Positions 18,344-53,802 of a stretch of 54,881 nt of DNA are shown one piece after another. The notes under the pieces were generated by a model, which was given only the letters and a program-made list of their open reading frames with translations, made no database searches and was not told the origin of the DNA. Each line of letters begins with the position of its first letter. Within the stretch, counting starts at the first letter, position 1. The translations under genes were made by a program, and so were the position numbers. This DNA is from Actinomycetota bacterium (GTDB lineage Bacteria; Actinomycetota; Aquicultoria; Aquicultorales; JAMCWL01): NCBI GenBank assembly GCA_023481285.1, contig JAMCWL010000054.1, positions 1-54,881 of the forward strand, written 5' to 3'.

Positions 18344-18436
18344 CGGAGGTGCGTGGGAATCGAACCCACCAACCAGGGATTAACCCGGCCGACTGGTTTT
18401 GAAGACCAGCTGAGCCACCAGGCCCAATCCACCTCC
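18344..18436 (-). tRNA. selC: tRNA-Sec (UCA anticodon)
   Basis: Reverse complement GGAGGTGGATTGGGCCTGGTGGCTCAGCTGGTCTTCAAAACCAGTCGGCCGGGTTAATCCCTGGTTGGTGGGTTCGATTCCCACGCACCTCCG; anticodon stem CTGGT-CTTCAAA-ACCAG, long variable arm, T-arm GTGGGTTCGATTCCCAC, G discriminator; beside selB/selA. Confidence 0.92.
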
Positions 18437-38741: not shown

Positions 38742-41700
38742 ATGGCGGTCGCAAGTATCATCAAGCGAGATGGACGCTCGGTCCCGTTCAAACGAGATAA
38801 GATAGAGAGCGCTATCCTGAAGGCCTTGCGGGCGGTCGGAAGAGATGAACCCGCGCTCGCCAGCCGCCTCGCCGGCGAGGCGGTCGATGAGGTCGACCGT
38901 TACTTTACCGACGAGCGTCCCCCGCACGTGGAAGAGGTCCAGGACATCGTCGAGCGCACCCTTATAAAGGCTGACCTGCCCGGCGCTCCCGGTAAATATA
39001 TCATTTACCGGGAGCGCCGGGCGGACATCCGGGCTACGAAGAGATTTGTCGGGGTCGCGGACGACCTCAAGGTCGGCGTCAACGCGGCGAAAGTTTTGAA
39101 CCAGCGCTATCTGAAGAAGGATGAGTCAGGTCGCGTCGTCGAGACGCCATCCGAGATGTTTCACCGGGTGGCGAAAGCGCTTGCCGCACCAGATCAAAAG
39201 TACGACGAAAAGGCCGACATCAAATCAACCGAGGAAGCCTTCTACCGGATGATGGCCTCCTTCGATTTCCTGCCGAACTCCCCGACGCTGATGAATGCCG
39301 GCACCCCGCTCGGGCAACTCGCCGCCTGCTTCGTCATCCCGGTCGGAGATTCGATCACCGGGATCTTCGACGCCGTCAAATGGATGGCCCAGATCCACCA
39401 GACCGGGGGAGGCGTGGGCTATTCCTTTACGCGGCTCCGTCCGAAGGGAGATATCGTCCGGTCGACCAAGGGGATCGCTTCCGGACCCGTTTCGTTCATG
39501 CGCGTCTTCGACGTGGCGACCGACGTCATCAAGCAGGGCGGGCGGCGGCGGGGGGCGAACATGGGCATCCTCCGCTGCGATCATCCGGACATATTGGAAT
39601 TTGTAACGGCCAAGAGGCAGCCGGGTTTCCTTACCAATTTTAACGTCTCCGTCGCCGCGACCGATGAGTTCATGAAGAAAGCCGTCGAGGGTGGAGAAAT
39701 CGAGCTCGTAAACCCGAGGACCGGCGTCAAGGTTGGTAGATTGTCGGCCCCCTACCTATTTGACGTCATCGTCGCCTCCGCCTGGACGACCGGCGATCCC
39801 GGCCTCTTCTTCATCGACCGGACGAACGAGGCCAATCCCACTCCTAATATTGGGCAGTTTGAAAGCACAAACCCTTGCGTCGTTGGCTCGACGCGAATCG
39901 CGACATCAGATGGCCTCGTCACCATGGAAGAACTGTTTATATCAAAAGAATCACTTGCTGTGCTCACGAGAGTCGGTGGTACAAACGGCGCATCGGTAAG
40001 CACAGAGCAGAGAGTGCTTCCCGCGGTTCCAGTGTTTAAGACCGGTAGTAATCAACCGGTATACAGGGTGGAGACGAAGCATGGCTTCGAATTGACGGCG
40101 ACCGGTAATCACAGGTTCTTGACGCCGAACGGGTTTGTTGAACTCAAGGACTTGAAAATCGGCGATGAGCTGTACCTGCAGGCCGGGGAGGGTTTGTGGA
40201 GTGAGAAATACGATTTACCGCCGTTTTTACCGGAGCATCACACGGCGAAAGGTCGCTACGCAGCCGGTATTGGAAAAGGTAAAATACGACCGCCAGCCAG
40301 GTGGCCGAAAGAGTTGGGCCAGCTCTTAGGCTGGGCCGTCGGCGACGGATTTTTAACCCTCAACAGCGGCGCCATGGTCGCGTTCACATTCGGAGAAGCC
40401 GAGCGACATCTGCTCCCGCACTTCAGGAAGGTATTTGCCGATTGGTTTGGAGCGGCGGGTTATTTGCGCGAGCAGCGCGGGTCGATGCAGATGCGGTACA
40501 AGGGGTTCCCTGCAAGGTTCTTGGCTAATCTGGGTCTAGATACCGCCAAGTCTCATGAAAAGAAGGTGCCGGAATCCATATGGAGCGCGCCGAGAGAAGC
40601 TGTCGCCGGTTTTATGCAAGGACTTTTTACAACCGACGGTACGGTCAATCTAAGTGAAAAGAAAGGATCTTGCAGTATACGGCTTGCCAGCAGCTCGAAA
40701 GCGCTATTACAAGAGGTGCAATTGTTGCTGCTAAACTTCGGTATTATCTCAAGGCTGCATTTGCGCCGAGAACAAAGGGAAGCCTACCTACCCGGATCCG
40801 ATGGAGAGCCAAAGCGCACGAAGACACAGCCACAGTACGAGTTAATCATCGACAAAGCGAATCGGGATCGATTCATCGATCAAATAGGCTTTATGTCGGA
40901 CGCAAAGCAGGCGAAAGCCGAATCGTTCATTCGAGCGAAGAAGCGCAAGAGCAATCGCGAGACGTTTACGACAACCGTCGCATCCGTCGAGTTCGCGGGC
41001 TACGCCGATGTATACGATACGATGCAACCTTTTACCCACACCGTCATCTATAACGGCATCATAACGCACCAATGCGGTGAGGTCCCATTGCTGCCGTTCG
41101 AGTCGTGCAACCTGGGATCGATCAACCTCTCGAAGATGTTGACGCGCTGCCCGGACGGGACCCGCTGCACCATCGATTGGGAACACCTCAAAGAGACGGT
41201 GCACCTCTCCGTCCACTTTCTCGACAACGTCATCGACGCGAGTCTCTATCCCCTCACGCAGATCGACGAGATCACGAAGGCCAACCGCAAGATTGGCCTT
41301 GGGGTCATGGGCTTTGCCGAGATGCTTCTAAAGCTCGGTATAGCTTACGATTCCGAGGAGTCGGTTACAAAGGGTGAGGAGGTCATGGCCTTCATCTACG
41401 AGGAGGCCAAGAGAGCATCTGTGAAGCTAGCCGAGGCCAGAGGCTCCTTCCCAAACTTCAAGGGGAGCAAGTGGGAGAAGGCGGGGTATAAGAGAATGCG
41501 GAATGCGACCGTTACGACGATCGCTCCTACCGGCACCATCGGCATCATTGCCGGCACATCCAGCGGTATCGAGCCCATCTTCGCCATCTCCTACGCGCGC
41601 CAGGTGATGGAGGGCACAACGCTTCTCGAGACGAACGCCACCTTTGAAGAGGTCGCAAAGGCGAGGGGTTTCTCTAACCGCGAACTTATGCTTGAGATAG

Positions 41701-42077
41701 CCAAGACTGGTACCGTGAGGGATAGGGAAGATACCCCGGAGGACGTGCGCCGCCTCTTCGCGACGGCCTTTGACGTCGCGCCCGAGTGGCACGTGCAGAT
41801 CCAGGCGGTCTTCCAAAAGTACACCGACAATGCGGTCTCGAAAACGGTGAATTTGCCTCAGACGGCTACGATGGAAGATGTGCGACGAATCTATCTAATG
41901 GCTTACGAACTAGGATGCAAAGGAATAACGATCTACCGGTATGGCAGCAAACCGGAGCAGGTTCTTTACATCGGAACGCCGGAGGAGAAAAGAATCGTCG
42001 AGCAACCGGTGACGGCGACGAGCGAGTTCTCTGGCGGCTGTGCGTACGATTCAGAAACCAGAACCTGCCATTACTAG
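38742..42077 (+). CDS. nrdJ: Class II (adenosylcobalamin-dependent) ribonucleotide reductase with intein
   Basis: ATP-cone N-terminus; NPCGE site split by intein; LLPFESCNLGSINLSKM; APTGTIGIIAGTSSGIEPIFAISYARQV; VNLPQTATMEDV. Confidence 0.93.
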   Translation: MAVASIIKRDGRSVPFKRDKIESAILKALRAVGRDEPALASRLAGEAVDEVDRYFTDERPPHVEEVQDIVERTLIKADLPGAPGKYIIYRERRADIRATKRFVGVADDLKVGVNAAKVLNQRYLKKDESGRVVETPSEMFHRVAKALAAPDQKYDEKADIKSTEEAFYRMMASFDFLPNSPTLMNAGTPLGQLAACFVIPVGDSITGIFDAVKWMAQIHQTGGGVGYSFTRLRPKGDIVRSTKGIASGPVSFMRVFDVATDVIKQGGRRRGANMGILRCDHPDILEFVTAKRQPGFLTNFNVSVAATDEFMKKAVEGGEIELVNPRTGVKVGRLSAPYLFDVIVASAWTTGDPGLFFIDRTNEANPTPNIGQFESTNPCVVGSTRIATSDGLVTMEELFISKESLAVLTRVGGTNGASVSTEQRVLPAVPVFKTGSNQPVYRVETKHGFELTATGNHRFLTPNGFVELKDLKIGDELYLQAGEGLWSEKYDLPPFLPEHHTAKGRYAAGIGKGKIRPPARWPKELGQLLGWAVGDGFLTLNSGAMVAFTFGEAERHLLPHFRKVFADWFGAAGYLREQRGSMQMRYKGFPARFLANLGLDTAKSHEKKVPESIWSAPREAVAGFMQGLFTTDGTVNLSEKKGSCSIRLASSSKALLQEVQLLLLNFGIISRLHLRREQREAYLPGSDGEPKRTKTQPQYELIIDKANRDRFIDQIGFMSDAKQAKAESFIRAKKRKSNRETFTTTVASVEFAGYADVYDTMQPFTHTVIYNGIITHQCGEVPLLPFESCNLGSINLSKMLTRCPDGTRCTIDWEHLKETVHLSVHFLDNVIDASLYPLTQIDEITKANRKIGLGVMGFAEMLLKLGIAYDSEESVTKGEEVMAFIYEEAKRASVKLAEARGSFPNFKGSKWEKAGYKRMRNATVTTIAPTGTIGIIAGTSSGIEPIFAISYARQVMEGTTLLETNATFEEVAKARGFSNRELMLEIAKTGTVRDREDTPEDVRRLFATAFDVAPEWHVQIQAVFQKYTDNAVSKTVNLPQTATMEDVRRIYLMAYELGCKGITIYRYGSKPEQVLYIGTPEEKRIVEQPVTATSEFSGGCAYDSETRTCHY
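39876..41072 (+). mobile_element. LAGLIDADG intein (399 aa) in nrdJ
   Basis: Splice block A CVVGSTRIATSDGLVTMEEL, block B TGNHRFLT, endonuclease motifs LGWAVGDGFL and VAGFMQGLFTTDGTV, C-terminus VIYNGIITHQ|C; exteins rejoin to FESTNP-CGEVPLLPFESCN. Confidence 0.95.
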
Positions 42078-42735: not shown

Positions 42736-43638
42736 GTGATGATCATGAACCTCAACCAGTTAAGAGCATTTGTTGGAGTTATTGAAAGCGGTAGCTTTTC
42801 GGCAGCCGCCAGGCGGTTGGAACTTTCTCAGCCGGCTGTAAGTTTACAAATACAATCGCTCGAGGAGTACCTTGGGGTTCTGCTCCTCGACCGCCGGACC
42901 AAAAGGGTCACCATGACCGAGGCGGGCAACCTTTTCTATCCCGTAGCCTTAGATATTTTAAGCAAGCTCGAGGCCACCCAGCGCCGCCTCCAGGAACTTG
43001 GCGGCGTCGTCCGGGGTCGCCTGGCGGTAGGCGGCAGCACGACCCCCGGTCAGTACATCCTCCCGAAGCTACTCTCTCTTTTCAAGGGGGAATACCCCGA
43101 TGTCCTGGTAACGCTCAAGATAGCCGACACCGAGGCCGTCGAAGACGCGGTAATCACGGGTGACCTGGCGGCGGGTCTGACGGGAGCAAAGCCGAAAGCA
43201 CAGTTGAAGTCGCGCGTTTTTACTGAGGATGAGATAGTTCCAATCGTTCCGGCCAAAGGTGGGCCCGGTAAGCTCGACGTCGATCGCATCAAGCTCGAGC
43301 CGTTCATCCTGCGCGAGAAGGGATCTGGAACCAGGCGATCTATTGAAGAGTTCTTCGAGAGCTCAGGCGTCGCCCTCGAAGAACTCAACGTCGCCATGGA
43401 GCTCGGCAGCACGGAAGCGGTCGTAAAAGCGGTCGCGGCCGGCCTTGGTATATCGATGGTCTCCAAATGGGCCGCTGCGGACGCCATTAAGCTGGGCGAC
43501 GTGAAGGTGGCGTCGCTAAAGGGCACACCGATCGTCCGGCAGATATACCTCATCACCGGCAGGCGGGCTCCGACTCGAACGGCCGAAGCCTTTCTCTACT
43601 TCCTCGAAACGGTCGACACTTCGGCTATCAAGCCTTGA
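42736..43638 (+). CDS. LysR-family transcriptional regulator
   Basis: MNLNQLRAFVGVIESGSFSAAARRLELSQPAVSLQIQSLEEYLGVLLLDRRTKRVTMTEAG. Confidence 0.93.
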   Translation: MMIMNLNQLRAFVGVIESGSFSAAARRLELSQPAVSLQIQSLEEYLGVLLLDRRTKRVTMTEAGNLFYPVALDILSKLEATQRRLQELGGVVRGRLAVGGSTTPGQYILPKLLSLFKGEYPDVLVTLKIADTEAVEDAVITGDLAAGLTGAKPKAQLKSRVFTEDEIVPIVPAKGGPGKLDVDRIKLEPFILREKGSGTRRSIEEFFESSGVALEELNVAMELGSTEAVVKAVAAGLGISMVSKWAAADAIKLGDVKVASLKGTPIVRQIYLITGRRAPTRTAEAFLYFLETVDTSAIKP

Positions 43639-43732
43639 CCAGCTTCTTGGCACCGACGGTTTTATCTGTAAAAGGCTGTAAAAGGCTTGTAAACTTGGTG
43701 ACTTTGTGATAAGTTGACCTCAAGTTGAATAC

Positions 43733-43828
43733 TTGCTCCGACCCCGACCTTCTAAAGCGGAAGCCATGAAGGCGGGGCGATGGGTTCAGCCGGAAACGGC
43801 CGGGCCTCCCGCGTTTGGAAAGGGGCAA
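43733..43828 (+). ncRNA. Moco/Tuco-type riboswitch candidate 1
   Basis: P1 TTGCTCC/GGGGCAA; GCCG-GAAA-CGGC hairpin; GCCTCCCGCGTTTGGAAAGGGG; upstream of tungstate transporter. Confidence 0.7.
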
Positions 43829-43835
43829 TTTAGTG

Positions 43836-43868
43836 GCACTCCTTCGCGCGGGGAGTGCTTTTTGTTTT
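43836..43868 (+). terminator. Intrinsic terminator downstream of riboswitch candidate 1
   Basis: GCACTCC-N9-GGAGTGC followed by TTTTTGTTTT. Confidence 0.85.
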
Positions 43869-43913
43869 AAAAATTTACACAGATTATAACCCAATAAGCT
43901 AATTTCATATTTG

Positions 43914-44016
43914 GTCTCCGAGCCGTTGCGGCTAAGGCTGGCAAAAACTGGCTATGCCGAACGGCCGATAGGGTGGGGTTGAAAACGACCTCGCCTCCCG
44001 GGCTTGGAAAGGAGAC
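43914..44016 (+). ncRNA. Moco/Tuco-type riboswitch candidate 2
   Basis: P1 GTCTCC/GGAGAC; AGCC-gttgc-GGCT; GGTGGGGT...ACCTCGCC stem; GCCTCCCGGGCTTGGAAAGGAG. Confidence 0.75.
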
Positions 44017-44148
44017 TTCAGGAAGGCTGCCAATCAATACCTTTCCAGGCATTTGGCTTGAGGTTTGGGAAGGAGTGGTTGGATAAGGCTTAAGATGAAT
44101 TTGTACTTTGGCAAGCAGCCTTTTGTCTGGTTTTTTAAGGGAGGACAA

Positions 44149-45051
44149 GTGAAAAATTTAGCACTTTCATTACTGGCGCTTTTAACTCTGGCGGCGTTAC
44201 TCCTGGGAGTAGCCGGATGTGCCAAGGAGGCCAAAGAAGAAAAGAGGTCCGAGAGCAAGACGGCCACAGAGACTCCACCGGTCAAGAAAGAGACGATCAT
44301 TCTGGCCACAACGACCAGCACCAAGGATACGGGCCTGCTCGACGTCCTGATACCCGCATTTGAGAAGGAGACCGGGATCAAGGTGAAGACGGTCGCAGTG
44401 GGTACCGGCGAGGCGATCAAGATGGGCGAGCGGGGAGAGGCCGACGTTCTTCTCGTTCATGCGAAAAAAACGGAGGAGAAGTTCATGGCCGGCGGCTATG
44501 GCGAGACCAGGCGCGCCGTCATGCATAACGATTTCGTCTTGGTCGGCCCGTCCAGCGACCCGGCCGGAGTCAAGGGGCTGAAGTCGGCGAACGAGGCTTT
44601 CCAGAAGATCGCCGATAGCGCTTCGAACTTCGCTTCCCGCAACGACGAGTCCGGAACCCACAAGAAGGAGTTCGGCATCTGGGAGGCGCTCATCATCAAG
44701 CCCGAGGGCGGCTGGTATATCAAGACCGGTTCGGGCATGGCGGCGACGCTGAGAGTGGCGAACGAGAAGCAGGCTTACACCCTGACGGACAGGGGGACCT
44801 GGCTGGTCCAGAAGCCGAACCTTCAGCTCGAACTCATGGTCGAGAAGGACAAGCCCCTGTCGAACCCCTACTCGGTCATCACGCTCAACCCCGCGAAGTT
44901 TGAGAATTCCCGGGTCAAGTTCGAGGCCGGGAAGAGGTTCGCCGACTGGATAGTCTCGGCGGACGCGCAGAAGATGATCAACGACTTCGGAAAGGACAAG
45001 TATCCCGAGCCGCTGTTCACCGGGGATTCGACGCTTACAACATCCAAGTAA
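44149..45051 (+). CDS. tupA: Tungstate ABC transporter substrate-binding lipoprotein
   Basis: GTG start at 44149 after AAGGGAGGA; lipobox LLLGVAGC; IILATTTSTKDTGLLDVLIPAFEKETGIKVKTVAVGTGEAIKMGERGEADVLLVHAKKTEEKF. Confidence 0.92.
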   Translation: MKNLALSLLALLTLAALLLGVAGCAKEAKEEKRSESKTATETPPVKKETIILATTTSTKDTGLLDVLIPAFEKETGIKVKTVAVGTGEAIKMGERGEADVLLVHAKKTEEKFMAGGYGETRRAVMHNDFVLVGPSSDPAGVKGLKSANEAFQKIADSASNFASRNDESGTHKKEFGIWEALIIKPEGGWYIKTGSGMAATLRVANEKQAYTLTDRGTWLVQKPNLQLELMVEKDKPLSNPYSVITLNPAKFENSRVKFEAGKRFADWIVSADAQKMINDFGKDKYPEPLFTGDSTLTTSK

Positions 45052-45114: not shown

Positions 45115-45834
45115 ATGGATCTTATATATCTAGGCTTTAAGCAAGCGTTCATAATGATCTTCAAAGGCGACCGATTGGTCTTCGAGATAGCCCTGCGCTC
45201 TCTAATCGTATCCGGGACCGCCGTCGCCATATCAATGATCATAGGCATATCGCTGGGGCTGACGATAGCCCTCGCCCGCTTCCCCGGTCGGAGGGTGCTG
45301 CTGTCGCTGGTGAATACCGGGATGGGCCTCCCCCCGACGGCCGTCGGACTTTTCGTGGCGCTCCTCTTGGCCCGCCGGGGCCTCTTCGGCTTTGCGGAGC
45401 TCCTCTATACCAAGCAGGCGATGATCGTGGCGCAGACGGTGATCGCCACACCCATCGTCGCCGGGCTCACCGTCGCCGCCGTCCAGAACCTGAACCCAAA
45501 GTTGAGACTCCAATCCCTTGCCCTGGGAGCGACCAGGGCGCAGATGCTCTGGACGCTCATCAAGGAGGCGAAGCTGCCGATGCTCGCCGCCGTCATGGCA
45601 GGTTTCGGAGGCGTCATCTCTGAGGTGGGTGCCGTGATGATGGTCGGGGGGAATGTCACGGGTGATACGCAAGTGTTGACCACGGCGGTCGTCGAGTATG
45701 TCGGCAAGGGTAACTTCCCGGTGGCGATCGCGCTCTCGCTCATCCTGCTAACGCTCATCTTCCTGGTTAATTTCGTACTTACGCAAGTGCAACAGAGGGA
45801 GACTTCATCTTGGCCGAAGCGCATATCGAAGTAG
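45115..45834 (+). CDS. tupB: Tungstate ABC transporter permease
   Basis: ISLGLTIALARFPGRRVLLSLVNTGMGLPPTAVGLFVALLLARRGLFG; LGATRAQMLWTLIKEAKLPMLAAVMAGFGGVISEVGAVMMVGGN. Confidence 0.92.
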   Translation: MDLIYLGFKQAFIMIFKGDRLVFEIALRSLIVSGTAVAISMIIGISLGLTIALARFPGRRVLLSLVNTGMGLPPTAVGLFVALLLARRGLFGFAELLYTKQAMIVAQTVIATPIVAGLTVAAVQNLNPKLRLQSLALGATRAQMLWTLIKEAKLPMLAAVMAGFGGVISEVGAVMMVGGNVTGDTQVLTTAVVEYVGKGNFPVAIALSLILLTLIFLVNFVLTQVQQRETSSWPKRISK

Positions 45835-46967
45835 CCGGTTTAATCCACGAATATGACGGCAGGCGCGTCGTTTCGGTCGAGCGCTTCTCAATCGAACGGG
45901 GCAAAGTGCTGACGCTGATCGGTCCGAACGGCTCCGGGAAAAGCACATTTCTGCGCCTCGTCGGTCTGTTGGAGAAGCCCACCTCGGGGAGCACGCTCGT
46001 GAACGGAGTCGATCCCTGGCGGGCAAACAAGACGCTCGACTACCGGAGGCGGATGGCCGCCGTCTTCCAGGAGCCCCTCCTCTTCTCGGGCTCCGTGTTC
46101 GACAATATCGCGTATGGCCTAAAACTTCGTCGACTGCCTCGAGACGAGGTGAGGCGCCGGGCGAGGCGCGCGATGGAGACCATAGGCATCGCCCATCTTG
46201 CCGGGAGGCCCTCGAACAGGCTCTCCGGCGGGGAGGCTCAGCGGACGTCGCTTGCGAGGGCGCTCGCCATCGAGCCGGAAGTTCTCCTCCTGGATGAGCC
46301 GCTCGCCTCGCTCGATCCTCCTACCAGGGAATCGCTCCTTGGAGACTTCGAACAGATCCTCAAGGGCTGCGGTATCACAACCATCTATGTGACGCACAAC
46401 CGGACGGAAGCCCTTCTTCTCGGCGACGCCATCGCCGTCATGGTCGACGGGTCGGTAGACCAAGCCGGCACCGCACGTGAAGTTTTCGACAGGCCCAAAA
46501 CGATGACCGTCGCCGAGATCGTCGGTTGCGACAACCTTTTGCCGGGAAGGATCGTCGAGTCAAGCGGCGGCCTGGTCACCATAAAAATTGGCGACGGGGA
46601 GGTGGAGGCTCTCTCGGAGCGGCCGGTTGGCGAAGAGGTTCTCGCCTGCATCAGGCCGGAGGATATCACTATTTTCAAGGACGGATCGCCTCCCTCGAGC
46701 GCGCGCAATCACTTCTCCGGCAGAATCGCCAAGATAGCGGATTTGGGAGCTCTATCCAGGGTGACGGTTGAGGCTTGCATCGAGTTAGTAGCCTTTGTTA
46801 CAAAGAAGTCAGTCGATGAGATGGGGCTCGCCATGGGCTCCCAGGTCACCGCCACATTTAAAGCCACGGGGATCCATGTGATAGGGAACGGTAGAAGGAT
46901 GTGCGATGAAGAGGGGTACTGCGATCATTCTGGCCGGCGGGAAAAGCCGTCGGATGAGACGGGATAA
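45810..46967 (+). CDS. tupC: Tungstate ABC transporter ATP-binding protein with C-terminal TOBE/mop-like region
   Basis: LIGPNGSGKSTFLRLVGLLE; RLSGGEAQRTSLARALAIEPEVLLLDEPLASLD. Confidence 0.9.
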   Translation: MAEAHIEVAGLIHEYDGRRVVSVERFSIERGKVLTLIGPNGSGKSTFLRLVGLLEKPTSGSTLVNGVDPWRANKTLDYRRRMAAVFQEPLLFSGSVFDNIAYGLKLRRLPRDEVRRRARRAMETIGIAHLAGRPSNRLSGGEAQRTSLARALAIEPEVLLLDEPLASLDPPTRESLLGDFEQILKGCGITTIYVTHNRTEALLLGDAIAVMVDGSVDQAGTAREVFDRPKTMTVAEIVGCDNLLPGRIVESSGGLVTIKIGDGEVEALSERPVGEEVLACIRPEDITIFKDGSPPSSARNHFSGRIAKIADLGALSRVTVEACIELVAFVTKKSVDEMGLAMGSQVTATFKATGIHVIGNGRRMCDEEGYCDHSGRREKPSDETG

Positions 46968-47496
46968 AGCGCTCGTAACCATCCTCGGGGAACCTTTGAT
47001 CCTGAGGATTGTGCGGATAGTCGCCCCGCTCTTCGAATCACTGATCGTCGTCACCAACGACGACCTGGGGGTGGATCTGGCGGGCGCCATATTCGTCCAT
47101 GACAGCGTCCCCGACCAAGGACCGCTTGGCGGCATCCATGCCGGATTGACCGCGTCGCGAAGCGAAGATAATTTCGTCGTCGCCTGCGATATGCCCTTCA
47201 TAAACGCGGAGGTCGTCGAGCGGATCAGGTCTTTACGGGGCAAAGCCGCCGTCGCCCTGCCGGAGACGGCCGATGGCCTCGAACCGCTTTGCGCCGCCTA
47301 CTCGAGGTCATGCCTGCCGGCGGTTGAGGAGGCCATGGCGGCCGGGAAGAGGCGAATAATCGCCTTTTTTGATAGAGTAGAGGTTCGGGAGATTTCCCGG
47401 GCGGAACTGGCCGACATTCCGGGCGTCGAATACGCTTTCTTGAACGTCAACACGGAATCGGATCTCGAGGCGGCCATCATGATTGCCGGAGGTTGA
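46906..47496 (+). CDS. mobA: Molybdenum cofactor guanylyltransferase
   Basis: MKRGTAIILAGGKSRRMRRDKALVTILGEPLI; DQGPLGGIHAGL; ACDMPFI. Confidence 0.92.
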   Translation: MKRGTAIILAGGKSRRMRRDKALVTILGEPLILRIVRIVAPLFESLIVVTNDDLGVDLAGAIFVHDSVPDQGPLGGIHAGLTASRSEDNFVVACDMPFINAEVVERIRSLRGKAAVALPETADGLEPLCAAYSRSCLPAVEEAMAAGKRRIIAFFDRVEVREISRAELADIPGVEYAFLNVNTESDLEAAIMIAGG

Positions 47497-47500
47497 ACCG

Positions 47501-48250
47501 ATGGCTAAAAGCGCGAAAGAGCTGGAAAAGATCGACATGAAGCTCCACATGCCGGTTGAGAGACCCGTCACCGTATATCTGAACGGGGTGGAGATCGTCA
47601 CCATACAGACCAGCCTCGGTTTTTTGGAAGAGCTGGCCGCCGGCTTCCTCGTCGCCGAAGGGATACTGGCGGGCGCCGACGACCTTCGGAAGATCACGGT
47701 CGATGAGCGTAAGGGCATGGTCTGGGTCGAGGCAAAGGGTTCGAAAGAGATCGCAGGCCAAATGGTCGGCAAGCGCTTCCTGACCTCCGGGTGCGGCAAG
47801 GGCTTTTCCTTCTCAAATCCGGGAGACCTGCGGGGGCTCGGGGTGATCGAATCGTCTTTCAAAATCTCTAAAGGGCGGTTGACCGAGCTGATGAAAGAGG
47901 TCCTCATCGAGGGCCGCCGGCCCGGATTGCACTGCTCCGCCCTCGCCGACCTTGACGGAATTGTTGCGCTCCGCCACGACATCGGTCGTCACAATACGGT
48001 CGACATGCTCGTCGGGCACCTCTTCCTGTCGGGAAGGAGCGGCGGCGGCCTCGTCATGATGACGACCGGCCGGATCTCCTACGAGATGGCGGTCAAGGCG
48101 GCGAAGGCGAAGATCCCGGTGATCGCAACCCGCTCGGCCGCCACCGACCTCGCCGTCGAGGTGTCGGAAAAGATCGGCGTTGAAGTCGCCGGCTATGTCA
48201 GAGGCAGAGACGTCGTCGTCTATACGAACCTGGGTCGGGTCGCCGACTAG
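47501..48250 (+). CDS. fdhD: Formate dehydrogenase accessory sulfurtransferase FdhD
   Basis: LEELAAGFLVAEGIL; FLTSGCGKGFSFSNP; ALADLDGIVALRHDIGRHNTVDMLVG; VIATRSAATDLAVEVSEKIGVEVAGYVRGRDVVVYTN. Confidence 0.9.
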   Translation: MAKSAKELEKIDMKLHMPVERPVTVYLNGVEIVTIQTSLGFLEELAAGFLVAEGILAGADDLRKITVDERKGMVWVEAKGSKEIAGQMVGKRFLTSGCGKGFSFSNPGDLRGLGVIESSFKISKGRLTELMKEVLIEGRRPGLHCSALADLDGIVALRHDIGRHNTVDMLVGHLFLSGRSGGGLVMMTTGRISYEMAVKAAKAKIPVIATRSAATDLAVEVSEKIGVEVAGYVRGRDVVVYTNLGRVAD

Positions 48251-48831: not shown

Positions 48832-50058
48832 TTGGAGGTATCTTGTTTGATTAGCGTGGATGAGGCGCGCGAAAGGATACTGTCGGAGATCACTCCCCTC
48901 CCACCGGAGGAAGTGCCGATTCTTGACGCACTCGGTCGCACGCTCGCCGAGGAGGTTCGCTCCGACGTTGATATCCCCCCTTTCGATAACTCAGCGATGG
49001 ACGGGTATGCGGTTCGAGCGGCCGACGTCGAGATCGCGACGGCGGAAGCCCCGGTGGTCCTTGAGGTACTCGAGGACGTCGCTGCGGGCTATGTGGCGAC
49101 CAATCGTGTCGGTGAGGGACAGGCGATCAGAATAATGACTGGCGCGCCGCTTCCGGAAGGGGCCGACGGGATCGTCATGGTCGAGTTCACTGAAAGAACG
49201 GGGAGCGGCGTCAATATCTTCAAGGGCGTGAGAAAAGGAGAGAGTGTGCGCTACGCCGGGGAGGACGTTCGGGAGGGTGAGGTCGTTCTCGCGCAGGGCA
49301 AACTCCTGAAGCCGGGCGACATCGGCATGCTCGCCAGCACCGGGCGCGCCGCCGTTCGCGTCTTTCGCCAGCCGCGCGTCGCGATCCTCTCGACCGGCGA
49401 CGAGCTGGTCGATGTGGGTGAACCGCTTGCTCCGGGGAAAATCAGGAACTCGAACGCGTACTCTCTCGCCGCCCAGGCGCTCGAAGTGAGCGCGATCCCG
49501 GTCATCCTCGGAATCGCGAGAGACCGCCGTGACGATCTGGTTGAGAAGCTTGAGAAAGGCCTGGAGGCGGATATCTTGATCACGAGCGGGGGAGTCTCAG
49601 TCGGCGATTACGACCTGGTCAAGCAGGTCCTGGCCGAGCAGGGAGAGATGCTGCTCTGGAAGGTCGCCATGAAGCCGGGAAAGCCGCTCGCCTTCGGCAT
49701 CGTCAAAGGTAAACCCCTCTTCGGGCTACCCGGGTACCCGACGTCGTCAATGATCAGCTTCGACCAGTTCGTCCGCCCCGCCATCTTGAAGATGGGCGGC
49801 CGGAAAGATCTCTTGAGGCCGGAAATCGAGGCCATCCTCGACGAGCGAATCACAAAGAAGCAGGGGCGCCGCTACTTCCTGCGCGGTATTCTCGAACGAA
49901 GGGATGGCGAGCTTCACGCGAAGTTGGCGGGCTCCCAGAAGTCAGGCGCTTTGAAGTCGATGACGCTCGCCGACGCGCTTCTCGTCATTGGTGAGGAGGT
50001 CACCCTAGTAGAGCCCGGCGAGCGGGTGACCGCCCAACTGTTATATGGGCTACCTTAA
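48832..50058 (+). CDS. moeA: Molybdopterin molybdenumtransferase (start codon uncertain)
   Basis: PPFDNSAMDGYAVRAADV; GAPLPEGADGIVMVE; GDELVDVGEPLAPGKIRNSNAYSL; FGLPGYPTSSMISF. Confidence 0.93.
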   Translation: MEVSCLISVDEARERILSEITPLPPEEVPILDALGRTLAEEVRSDVDIPPFDNSAMDGYAVRAADVEIATAEAPVVLEVLEDVAAGYVATNRVGEGQAIRIMTGAPLPEGADGIVMVEFTERTGSGVNIFKGVRKGESVRYAGEDVREGEVVLAQGKLLKPGDIGMLASTGRAAVRVFRQPRVAILSTGDELVDVGEPLAPGKIRNSNAYSLAAQALEVSAIPVILGIARDRRDDLVEKLEKGLEADILITSGGVSVGDYDLVKQVLAEQGEMLLWKVAMKPGKPLAFGIVKGKPLFGLPGYPTSSMISFDQFVRPAILKMGGRKDLLRPEIEAILDERITKKQGRRYFLRGILERRDGELHAKLAGSQKSGALKSMTLADALLVIGEEVTLVEPGERVTAQLLYGLP

Positions 50059-50061
50059 CTT

Positions 50062-50111
50062 GTAGGGGCACGCCATCGGCGTGCCCTTTGGAGTACGCGA
50101 TAGCGTACTCC
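50062..50111. repeat. Dispersed palindromic repeat copy 2 followed by a second palindrome
   Basis: gtaggggcacgccatcggcgtgccctttgg then ggagtacgcgatagcgtactcc. Confidence 0.75.
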
Positions 50112-50177
50112 AAATACATAAGCGCGCCGTGGCGTGCCGACGCAATCAACCACTCGTTATCGTTTTGGAGGAGAAAG

Positions 50178-50357
50178 ATGGATGAGTTACCAGCAGAGCT
50201 TTTGACCAGAATTAAAGAGGCGTCTATCGAGAAGCGCATATCCTGTTCCGTCGCTCGCCGGATCGCCGAGGAATTGAAAGTCCCCATGAAAAAAGCGGGC
50301 GAGGCGGCTGACGAACTCGGCATCAAGATATACGCCTGCGAGCTCGGGTGTTTCTAG
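50178..50357 (+). CDS. Small (59 aa) HTH-like protein of unknown function
   Basis: RBS GGAGGAG before ATG; MDELPAELLTRIKEASIEKRISCSVARRIAEELKVPMKKAGEAADELGIKIYACELGCF; stop overlaps mobB start. Confidence 0.6.
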   Translation: MDELPAELLTRIKEASIEKRISCSVARRIAEELKVPMKKAGEAADELGIKIYACELGCF

Positions 50358-50872
50358 TGACCCCTATCATTTCGATCGTCGGTAAATCAAACGTCGGCAA
50401 GACGACCTTGCTCGAGAAGCTCATCGCCGAGCTGGTCTCAAGTGGCTACCGGGTGGCGGCTATCAAGCATAACAAGCACGGCTTCGACCTCGACCGCCCG
50501 GGCAAGGATACCTGGCGCCTGGCAAGAGCGGGGGCCTCGGCCGTCGCCATAGCCAGCGCCCACCAGCTTGCCGTCATGCGCGAGGTCGAGGGGGAGCCCG
50601 CCCTGGAGGAGTTGCTCCCCCTCCTTGGGGACGGGTATGACATCGTCCTCACAGAGGGCTACAAAAATGGGCCCGCTCCGAAAGTGGAGGTTTTCCGCGC
50701 TGGCGTCTACGACTCCCTGCTTTGCGGCGACGAAGACTGCCTGATCGCGGTGGCGACCGACGTCGAGGTCGAGACGGGAGCACCCCAATTCCCCCTCGAT
50801 AATGCGTCCGCGCTCTCCGATTTTATAGAAGAGAAGTTTTTGAAAGGGCCCCGGCGTGAGCGAACTTTATGA
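50357..50872 (+). CDS. mobB: Molybdopterin-guanine dinucleotide biosynthesis protein B
   Basis: PIISIVGKSNVGKTTLLEKLIAELVSSGYRVAAIKHNKHGFDLDRPGKDTWRLARAGA. Confidence 0.93.
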   Translation: MTPIISIVGKSNVGKTTLLEKLIAELVSSGYRVAAIKHNKHGFDLDRPGKDTWRLARAGASAVAIASAHQLAVMREVEGEPALEELLPLLGDGYDIVLTEGYKNGPAPKVEVFRAGVYDSLLCGDEDCLIAVATDVEVETGAPQFPLDNASALSDFIEEKFLKGPRRERTL

Positions 50873-51827
50873 CGGGTTTAACCGGCGGATAGATTACCTA
50901 AGGCTTTCGATAACGGATCGATGCAACCTTCGATGCACTTACTGCATGCCTGAGGAGGGTATTGAAGAGCGACCGCACGGCGATATCTTGAGCTACGAGG
51001 AGCTGGAGACCTTCACCACGGGGGCCGTAGGGGCCGGAATCTCGAAGGTCAGAGTGACCGGTGGCGAACCCCTCGTCAGGAAGGATGCCGTAGATCTGAT
51101 AGCCATGCTGGCAGCTCTTCCGAACCTGAACGACGTCTCCCTTACGACAAACGGCGTCCTTCTCGAAGAGCATGCGGCCGATTTAGCCAAGGCGGGGCTC
51201 GCTCGCGTAAACATAAGCATAGACTCGCTCGATCCGGCCGTCTACAGGAAGCTCACCCGCTGGGGAAGGGTCGACAGGGCGCTCTCGGGTCTTAGGAAGG
51301 CGCTTGAAGTGGGTCTGGAGCCGGTCAAAGTCAACGCGGTTCTACTGCGCGGGGTAAACGACGACCCGAGCGATTTCATAAAGCTTACCTACGACTATCC
51401 GGTCCACGTACGCTTTATCGAGCATATGCCGATCGGCAAGTCGAAGGCTTGGAGCCCGGAGGATTTCGTCTCGATAGGCGAGCTCAAAGAGAGCTTGGCA
51501 AGATACGGCAAGCTTGAGGAGTCGGCGGGCCCTGTTGGCGCCGGACCGGCGACTTATCTGAAGTTTAAAGAGGCGCTCGGCACCGTCGGCTTCATCAGCC
51601 CGATCAGCCGCCACTTCTGCGACGAGTGCAATCGCTTAAGGCTAACCCCCGACGGAAGGCTGAGGGTCTGCCTCTTCTCCGACGAGGAGATGGATGTGAG
51701 ACCAGCCATCTGGCAGGGTGAAGCGGCGGTCAAGGCCGTGATCGCAAAGGCCTTAAAGACAAAACCGAAGGAGCACGCGACCGAGCTTCAGAGCTTCAAG
51801 CGCCTCATGTTCCAAATCGGAGGTTGA
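50856..51827 (+). CDS. moaA: GTP 3',8-cyclase MoaA (radical SAM)
   Basis: LRLSITDRCNLRCTYCMPEEGIE; RVTGGEPLVRKD; SRHFCDECNRLRLTPDGRLRVCLF; C-terminal GG. Confidence 0.95.
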   Translation: MSELYDGFNRRIDYLRLSITDRCNLRCTYCMPEEGIEERPHGDILSYEELETFTTGAVGAGISKVRVTGGEPLVRKDAVDLIAMLAALPNLNDVSLTTNGVLLEEHAADLAKAGLARVNISIDSLDPAVYRKLTRWGRVDRALSGLRKALEVGLEPVKVNAVLLRGVNDDPSDFIKLTYDYPVHVRFIEHMPIGKSKAWSPEDFVSIGELKESLARYGKLEESAGPVGAGPATYLKFKEALGTVGFISPISRHFCDECNRLRLTPDGRLRVCLFSDEEMDVRPAIWQGEAAVKAVIAKALKTKPKEHATELQSFKRLMFQIGG

Positions 51828-51828
51828 A

Positions 51829-52314
51829 ATGGCAAAAAAGAGCCTTACCCACCTTAACGAGGAAGGCAGGGCCCGCATGGTGGACGTTGGCGGCAAAGAG
51901 ATCACGGCGAGGGAGGCGACCGCTGAGGCGATCGTCTCCATGAAAGCGAAGACGATGCGCCTGATCAAAGAGGGAGCGATCAAGAAGGGCGATGTTCTAG
52001 CGGTCGCCCAGGTGGCCGGGATAATGGCCGCGAAGCGAACCCCCGACGCCATCCCGATGTGTCATCCAATCCAAATAACAGGTGTGGACATAAACTTCAG
52101 GTTTATAGATGATGAGCACCTCGTCATAGAGGCTATCGTTCGGACCCTGGATAGAACGGGTGTCGAGATGGAAGCCCTAAACGCCGCCGCGACAGCCGCG
52201 CTTACCGTCTACGACATGGCGAAAGCCGTCGATCGGGGAATGACGGTGGAGCGGGTAAGGCTGCTAGCCAAGTCGGGGGGAAAGTCGGGCATCTTTAAGA
52301 GAGAAGAAAGGTAG
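51829..52314 (+). CDS. moaC: Cyclic pyranopterin monophosphate synthase MoaC
   Basis: LTHLNEEGRARMVDVGGKEITAREATAEA; AQVAGIMAAKRTPDAIPMCHPIQITGVDI; DMAKAVDRGMTVERVRLLAKSGGKSG. Confidence 0.95.
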   Translation: MAKKSLTHLNEEGRARMVDVGGKEITAREATAEAIVSMKAKTMRLIKEGAIKKGDVLAVAQVAGIMAAKRTPDAIPMCHPIQITGVDINFRFIDDEHLVIEAIVRTLDRTGVEMEALNAAATAALTVYDMAKAVDRGMTVERVRLLAKSGGKSGIFKREER

Positions 52315-52535: not shown

Positions 52536-52637
52536 AAACCGCAAGAGAGGGATCGCCGCGATCCGTTTCGCAGACCCCGCGATGACGGCAAAGGAAGGCC
52601 TTTGCTGAGAGACCAAGATACCAGGAGGTTTAGCGAT

Positions 52638-53144
52638 ATGAACGAAGTCGAAGAGAAAGCAACCGGACAGGCATCCGGCGTGGGAGCTACCGGTATGATC
52701 GTCTCGGTCAACGTCGCCCCCCGGAAGACGGTCCGCAAGAAGCCGGTCGGCGAGGGCAAGCTAAAGGTGGAGCACGGCCTCTCCGGCGACGCCCATGCCG
52801 GCGATTGGCATCGCCAGGTAAGCCTGCTAGCTCAGGAGTCGATCGATAAGATGATTGCGATGGGGCTGGATGTCGGCCCAGGTGATTTCGCCGAGAACCT
52901 GACGACGTCCGGGCTCGACTTACTCGCCCTTCCCATCGGAAGCCGTCTGCGCGTTGCCGAGTCCGTCCTTCTGGAGGTCACCCAGATCGGCAAGGAGTGC
53001 CACACGCGCTGCGCCATCTACTACCAGGCGGGCGACTGCGTCATGCCGAGGGAGGGGATTTTCGCCCGCGTCATAGAAGGCGGTAAGGTGAAGGCTGGCG
53101 ATTCGGTCGAAATCTTAAGCCTAGGCGAAGAAAATAGAGAGTAG
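52638..53144 (+). CDS. MOSC-domain protein
   Basis: HGLSGDAHAGDWHRQVSLLAQESIDKM; GDFAENLTTSGLDLLALPIGSRLRV; GKECHTRCAIYYQAGDCVMPREGIFARVIEGG. Confidence 0.9.
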   Translation: MNEVEEKATGQASGVGATGMIVSVNVAPRKTVRKKPVGEGKLKVEHGLSGDAHAGDWHRQVSLLAQESIDKMIAMGLDVGPGDFAENLTTSGLDLLALPIGSRLRVAESVLLEVTQIGKECHTRCAIYYQAGDCVMPREGIFARVIEGGKVKAGDSVEILSLGEENRE

Positions 53145-53295: not shown

Positions 53296-53802
53296 GTGCG
53301 CATAGCGATCATAACCGTTAGCGATAAAGGCTCTCGCGGTGAACGAGCCGATACCGCCGGCCCGGCTATCCGTGAGATCATGGAAGCGAAAGGGGCCGAG
53401 GCGGTCTCGTACGAGATCGTTCCGGACGAGCGAGAAGTAATAGAAGATCGCTTGAGGAAGCTCGCCGATGAGTGTGCGGCCGACATAATCTTCACGACCG
53501 GCGGAACCGGGTTCTCCCCCCGCGACGCAACCCCCGAAGCGACACTCGCGGTCATCGAACGCGAGGCCCCCGGAATCCCTGAAGCGATGAGAGCCGCGTC
53601 GCTCACCATCACCCCCCATGCCATGCTCTCGCGCGCCGTCGCCGGAATTCGTAAGCGAACGCTCATCGTAAACATGCCCGGGAGCGAAAAGGCGGTCCGC
53701 GAGTCACTCGCCGTCATCATCCCCGCGCTACCCCATGCAGTCGAAATCCTGACAGGCGAGGGCGGGGATTGTGCAAACCAGAAAATAGAAAATAATATTT
53801 AA
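53296..53802 (+). CDS. mog: Molybdopterin adenylyltransferase (MogA/MoaB family)
   Basis: MRIAIITVSDKGSRGERADTAGPAI; DIIFTTGGTGFSPRDATPEAT; LIVNMPGSEKAVRESL. Confidence 0.92.
   Translation: MRIAIITVSDKGSRGERADTAGPAIREIMEAKGAEAVSYEIVPDEREVIEDRLRKLADECAADIIFTTGGTGFSPRDATPEATLAVIEREAPGIPEAMRAASLTITPHAMLSRAVAGIRKRTLIVNMPGSEKAVRESLAVIIPALPHAVEILTGEGGDCANQKIENNI

Follow-up and report, generated by a model that had tools for sequence, protein, structure and literature searches.

The window analysed here, the whole stretch of 54,881 nucleotides, carries on its plus strand a tungstate transporter and cofactor operon preceded by an RNA leader. The first gene, tupA (44149-45051), encodes the substrate-binding protein of a tungstate ABC transporter, which matches NF041772 with an E value of 7.4e-69, below that model's curated cut-off, and is 55-63% identical to its orthologues in the order. 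It is followed by the permease gene tupB (45115-45834; NF038017 above cut-off, NF041773 TupB at 3.1e-42) and by a tupC/wtpC-like gene (45810-46967, start codon uncertain) for an ATPase with a TOBE domain (NF040840, 2.6e-88; PF00005 and PF03459). Then come mobA (46906-47496; TIGR02665, 2.2e-34), fdhD (47483-48250; TIGR00129 above cut-off), moeA/glp (48832-50058; NF045515, 5.1e-127; NF007960, 2.3e-124), a gene for a small conserved protein of Mo/W operons (50088-50357; weak PF24655, DUF7645, match), mobB (50348-50872; TIGR00176 above cut-off), moaA (50856-51827; TIGR02666 above cut-off), moaC (51829-52314; PF01967), a MOSC-domain protein gene (52602-53144; PF03473) and a mog/moaB-like gene for a molybdopterin-binding protein (53296-53802; PF00994). 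The small protein is 52% identical over 48 aa to one encoded between two Moco RNAs in locus L047; its family ends in Y.C.LGCF and recurs at L047 9765-9953, L048 8860-9048 and L049 8297-8485, in each case between a Moco RNA with the P3 stem and one lacking it. The window further holds a LysR regulator gene adjoining the leader (42736-43638), above the cut-off of the selenium-metabolism family NF040786, a selenocysteine tRNA gene on the minus strand (18345-18436) and, at 38742-42077, a gene for a 1111-aa ribonucleotide-reductase-like protein which, judging from its translation, seems to have a mid-protein intein.

Scanning the tupA leader with all Rfam families returned RF01055, the Moco RNA motif, twice, each match running across the whole model and scoring about twice the gathering score of 36. 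Copy 1 occupies 43724-43841 (72.0 bits, E 1.7e-15; conserved core 43736-43825) and copy 2 occupies 43904-44030 (71.2 bits, E 2.9e-15; conserved core 43916-44014), both on the plus strand, and the Moco/Tuco family proposed by the initial annotation is thereby borne out. The assembly, at about 92% completeness, has no further RF01055 copy, and these two stand where the family is expected, upstream of Mo/W transport or cofactor genes (tupABC, mobA, moeA, mobB, moaA and moaC). The two motifs share sequence blocks and each is closed by its own P1, as the annotation had described: in copy 1, TTGCTCC (43733-43739) pairs with GGGGCAA (43822-43828), and in copy 2, GGTCTCC (43913-43919) pairs with GGAGACT (44011-44017). 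Their fold z-scores are -2.3 and -3.7, respectively, and copy 1 reached 88.3 bits under a model built in the present analysis, of which it is itself a member. In an alignment of 22 related P3-less RNAs that includes both window copies, 93.8% of cells pair and 15 of 28 pairs are altered on both sides. The covariation score was 0.405; shuffles reached 0.150 and slid structures no more than 0.08, the signal being lost once the pairing was slid by a single column. The stems are thus strongly covarying in relatives. We also considered the first P2 pair (C-G in copy 1, G-C in copy 2) as a subclass mark and rejected it as an ordinary covarying pair (alignment columns 8 and 53).

Between the two copies lies the hairpin GGCACTCCTTCGCGCGGGGAGTGC with a T-rich run. 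It begins 6 nt past the P1 of copy 1, spans 43835-43859 and is followed by TTTTGTTTTA, giving an intrinsic terminator at 43835-43869 on the plus strand (-14.6 kcal/mol, z -3.0). Because a simple terminator scan would find about 1.2 terminator-like sites by chance in this region, the call is based on where the hairpin lies, how it folds and the terminators found at the same place in relatives, both in the same order and in three genomes of an unrelated family of the same phylum (G089, G331 and G248). The two tandem copies, the terminator between them, and the tungstate transporter and cofactor operon downstream are thus confirmed.

The 3' end of the copy 2 P1 lies 132 nt upstream of the GTG start of tupA at 44149, which has its own ribosome-binding site, GGGAGG (44139-44144). 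When the P1 of copy 2 was forced in constrained folds, the downstream region formed a branched hairpin closed by CAGG/CTGG and directly abutting TTTTTT (44131-44136), and we propose this element, at 44019-44136 on the plus strand, as the putative terminator of copy 2. When the 5' strand of P1 was held single, GGAAAGGAGAC paired with GTCTGGTTTTTT instead, and the alternative partner of the 3' strand lies at 44125-44138, which takes in the T-run. This alternative pairing was no better than that obtained with shuffled sequence, and the proposed terminator is long and branched, with a fold energy unremarkable for the region (z -1.3). It seems that both copies in the window look like transcription terminators, the second on the strength of folds, which does not favor the suggestion of different expression platforms for the window; in three relatives (G003, G008 and G007), the P3-less copy instead has the ribosome-binding site in its P1.

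The subtype of the two aptamers follows from P3. In alignments and by parsing, the window copies have nothing but CGAT or CGATA where this stem would sit, between P2 and P4, which makes both structurally P3-less (Tuco/Wco). The 2008 study found 58 of 176 RNAs without P3, and 17 of 19 organisms with such RNAs had tungsten-cofactor genes, while P3-bearing RNAs accompanied molybdopterin or Moco genes only (PMC2408646). Since both lack P3, by this published rule the two window copies would be of the tungsten-cofactor type, and the pairing of one Moco-type with one Tuco-type copy that had been suggested for the window finds no support there. The window is thus a tandem of two aptamers of one structural subtype with a terminator after copy 1, the platform of copy 2 being deduced from folds. 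The genome encodes ModA alongside TupABC and has four stretches matching PF00384, the molybdopterin oxidoreductase domain; no AOR was found in it, and AOR presence in same-order relatives does not track the P3 state.

Comparison with relatives places this leader in a changing series. The RNA is present in front of tupA in 10 of 11 same-order relatives. In G003 (L018 1286-1619) and G008 (L015 1501-1912), a P3-bearing aptamer, a terminator and a P3-less aptamer follow one another, and the GGAAAGGAG of the second aptamer is the tupA ribosome-binding site. G001 (L028 1501-1740) keeps the first aptamer and terminator with a damaged P3-less remnant lacking the CCTCCCG...GGAAAGG part, G002 has a duplicated 3' fragment in that place, and G004, G009, G010 and G011 have the P3-bearing aptamer and terminator only. 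Single copies with the ribosome-binding site in P1 occur in G005 (P3-bearing) and G007 (P3-less). In the unrelated family of the same phylum, G089, G331 and G248 share the window layout of P3-less copy, terminator, P3-less copy and tupA, and G120 (L042 1929-2327) has a P3-less copy, a terminator-like hairpin, a P3-bearing copy and tupA. Because relatives show single, mixed, homotypic and remnant arrangements, the window layout is, as read from these sequences, one of the forms taken by a leader in which copies come and go. A P3-bearing plus a P3-less aptamer, taken as a proxy for two ligands, thus occurs in one leader in G003, G008 and G120, and the idea of a Moco and Tuco pair fits the lineage better than the window genome, because G003 and G008 carry a P3-bearing and then a P3-less copy. 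Three further candidates for mixed leaders (G020, G029 and G032) were set aside, as a 62-aa gene lies between their two RNAs. Besides the tandems, head-to-head Moco RNAs on opposite strands, 80-500 nt apart, were seen at L044 6397-6720 (G089), as if divergent operons use one control region; more such pairs lie on G149:C29, G169:C102, G198:C8, G238:C103, G297:C246, G323:C172, G347:C127.

According to the above-described analysis, we favor, with a probability of roughly 0.6, two tungsten-cofactor OFF switches acting in series, which would terminate transcription when the cofactor is plentiful. The two P3-less riboswitches most likely lie on one transcript. Abundant cofactor would bind each aptamer and stabilize P1, the stable P1 would sequester the conserved GGAAAGG(A/G)G strand, and the downstream terminator would then form and leave tupABC and the cofactor genes untranscribed; under scarcity, polymerase would get past both checkpoints. 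Two checkpoints instead of one may give a tighter and steeper response. The tungsten cofactor is the likeliest ligand of both copies because P3 is absent and because of the gene context, and OFF switching by termination is proposed because of the fold pattern in copy 2 and because the E. coli Moco RNA reduces expression in cells that produce Moco (PMC2408646). The matching layout in G089, G331 and G248 and the S. wolfei precedent also speak for this reading; ModA and the missing AOR in the genome, and the exceptions to the P3 rule, weigh against it.

When folded as far as the terminator loop, the leaders of G001, G009 and G010 favor a competing hairpin in which P1 is open, an outcome that 4 to 8% of shuffles match; the same calculation gave no support for copy 1 of the window, where antiterminator pairings were no better than shuffles. 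Antiterminator complementarity was dropped as evidence, since single cases were mostly not significant and the pooled test (12 hairpins, p 8e-5) fails, hairpins read backwards scoring equally. A TTG...-17-TAT..T site recurs 29-31 nt before the aptamer in most P3-bearing relatives; a sigma-70-like promoter upstream of copy 1 was rejected, no window site beating shuffles. A promoter between copies 1 and 2 is conceivable.

Copy 1 could instead stop transcription while copy 2 controls the translation of tupA, through the ribosome-binding site or through remodelling of the 130-nt stretch before it. Precedents exist in G003, G008 and G007, where the ribosome-binding site, a few bases ahead of a TTG start codon, is the P1 3' strand of the P3-less copy itself, so that in G003 and G008 one leader appears, from its sequence, to combine a transcriptional with a translational switch. 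However, the copy 2 P1 in the window ends far from the GTG with its separate GGGAGG, a hairpin ending in TTTTTT precedes that site, and the predicted pairing around it follows the P1 state in no simple way. Such a division of labor is therefore unlikely in the window, and serial termination remains our preferred reading.

The ancestry of the copies bears on another alternative, in which copy 1, a descendant of the order's P3-bearing first copies, has kept its response to Moco and copy 2 responds to the tungsten cofactor, the operon being on only when both are low (NOR). The two copies are 67% identical, which makes a recent duplication unlikely, although the AU test does not formally reject it. 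Copy 2 is closer to the second copies of relatives than to the first (75% versus 67%), and copy 1 has the same CTCCGACC start and terminator position as the P3-bearing copies, which are its nearest rows by tree path. The mixed leaders of G003 and G008 and the presence of both TupA and ModA in the genome also speak for such a gate. A tree of 36 aptamers (93 columns) is compatible with single origins for the P3-bearing first and the P3-less second copies, but it gives the window copies no firm position, and no grouping is rejected by AU tests. Against the gate, copy 1 lacks P3, its kinship is equivocal (70.8% identity to P3-bearing first copies versus 68.9% to P3-less copies), the E. coli RNA no longer regulated once its P3 had been deleted (PMC2408646), and many genomes have a lone P3-bearing RNA before tupA, where P3 may stand for something other than Moco. 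We consider a two-ligand gate in the window quite doubtful. For the order as a whole, we tentatively raise, at rather long odds, the possibility that the tungstate-transporter operon is controlled by a mixed tandem whose first unit is a P3-bearing (Moco-type) transcriptional switch and whose second is a P3-less (tungsten-type) switch, working as a natural Moco/Wco NOR gate, with copy 1 of the window as a P3-less descendant of the Moco-type unit. That only one copy works and the other is a decaying remnant is very improbable, for despite the fast turnover in the order (a damaged second copy in G001, a 3' fragment in G002, one copy in others), no conserved block is missing from either window copy, their stems are closed and their scores are equal.

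Serial P3-less aptamers are not new. The window copies have in common with the RF01055 family (PMC2408646) the sequence blocks, P1, P2, the GAAA-loop hairpin, the GGAAAGGAG strand and the association with Mo/W transport and cofactor genes, and differ in the absence of P3 alone. Tandem Moco RNAs were reported in Syntrophomonas wolfei and G. metallireducens in 2008, and the same work put forward the triple P3-less array of S. wolfei, with its terminators, as a digital Tuco switch (PMC2408646). The S. wolfei arrays resemble the window in that P3-less aptamers stand in series, with terminators behind the earlier copies and a gap ahead of the first gene, in an operon with Mo/W transport genes, whereas the window has two copies, a different phylum, and tupABC with a long cofactor operon downstream. 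A 2022 survey applied the term "pseudo-cooperative" to homotypic doublets, of either Moco or Wco RNAs, in which every aptamer has its own expression platform (PMC9481103); the window pair is likewise of one structural subtype, with a putative copy 2 platform drawn from folds. Unlike the window pair, the Wco doublets of that survey precede genes unrelated to tungsten-cofactor synthesis (PMC9481103). In our data, a tandem of P3-less Moco RNAs separated by a hairpin also lies upstream of apparent hydrogenase genes (L143, G228:C15:37500-42500), comparable to those Wco doublets. The window tandem therefore belongs to a type known since 2008 and documented again in 2022. Mixed Moco/Wco pairs such as those of G003 and G008 are absent from the 2022 table of two-input gates (PMC9481103), and none was found in the open literature, supplements aside.

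What goes further is these mixed pairs, together with the frequency of P3-bearing RNAs before tupA, against the exclusivity rule. Of 80 tupA loci from named genomes, 29 are preceded by the RNA at a distance of up to 600 nt, and roughly 20 of these RNAs are P3-less while roughly 9 have an insert at the place of P3; the latter span Aquicultorales, other actinobacteria, a WOR-1 bacterium and Firmicutes, and P3-bearing RNAs stand directly before the tungstate transporter gene at L060, L062, L081, L099, L108, L114, L115, L122 and L134. P3 was called with a simple sequence parser and a check by eye, because our P3-less model R1 misaligns P3-bearing sequences. Basal P3 pairs are kept in most Aquicultorales sequences, partly through two-sided changes. 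The 2008 rule thus has apparent exceptions, although such operons can also hold cofactor genes, and the inference from P3 to ligand is weakened to a correlation with exceptions because P3-bearing RNAs often precede tupA.

For the question of how a cell uses RNA to tell the molybdenum from the tungsten cofactor, the P3 rule of 2008 is the sole sequence guide we found, and the lone P3-bearing aptamers before tupA already suggest exceptions to it as then stated. This lineage gives a direct test, with adjacent P3-bearing and P3-less aptamers in one leader before the same tungstate transporter, and close relatives caught at different points of copy gain and decay.
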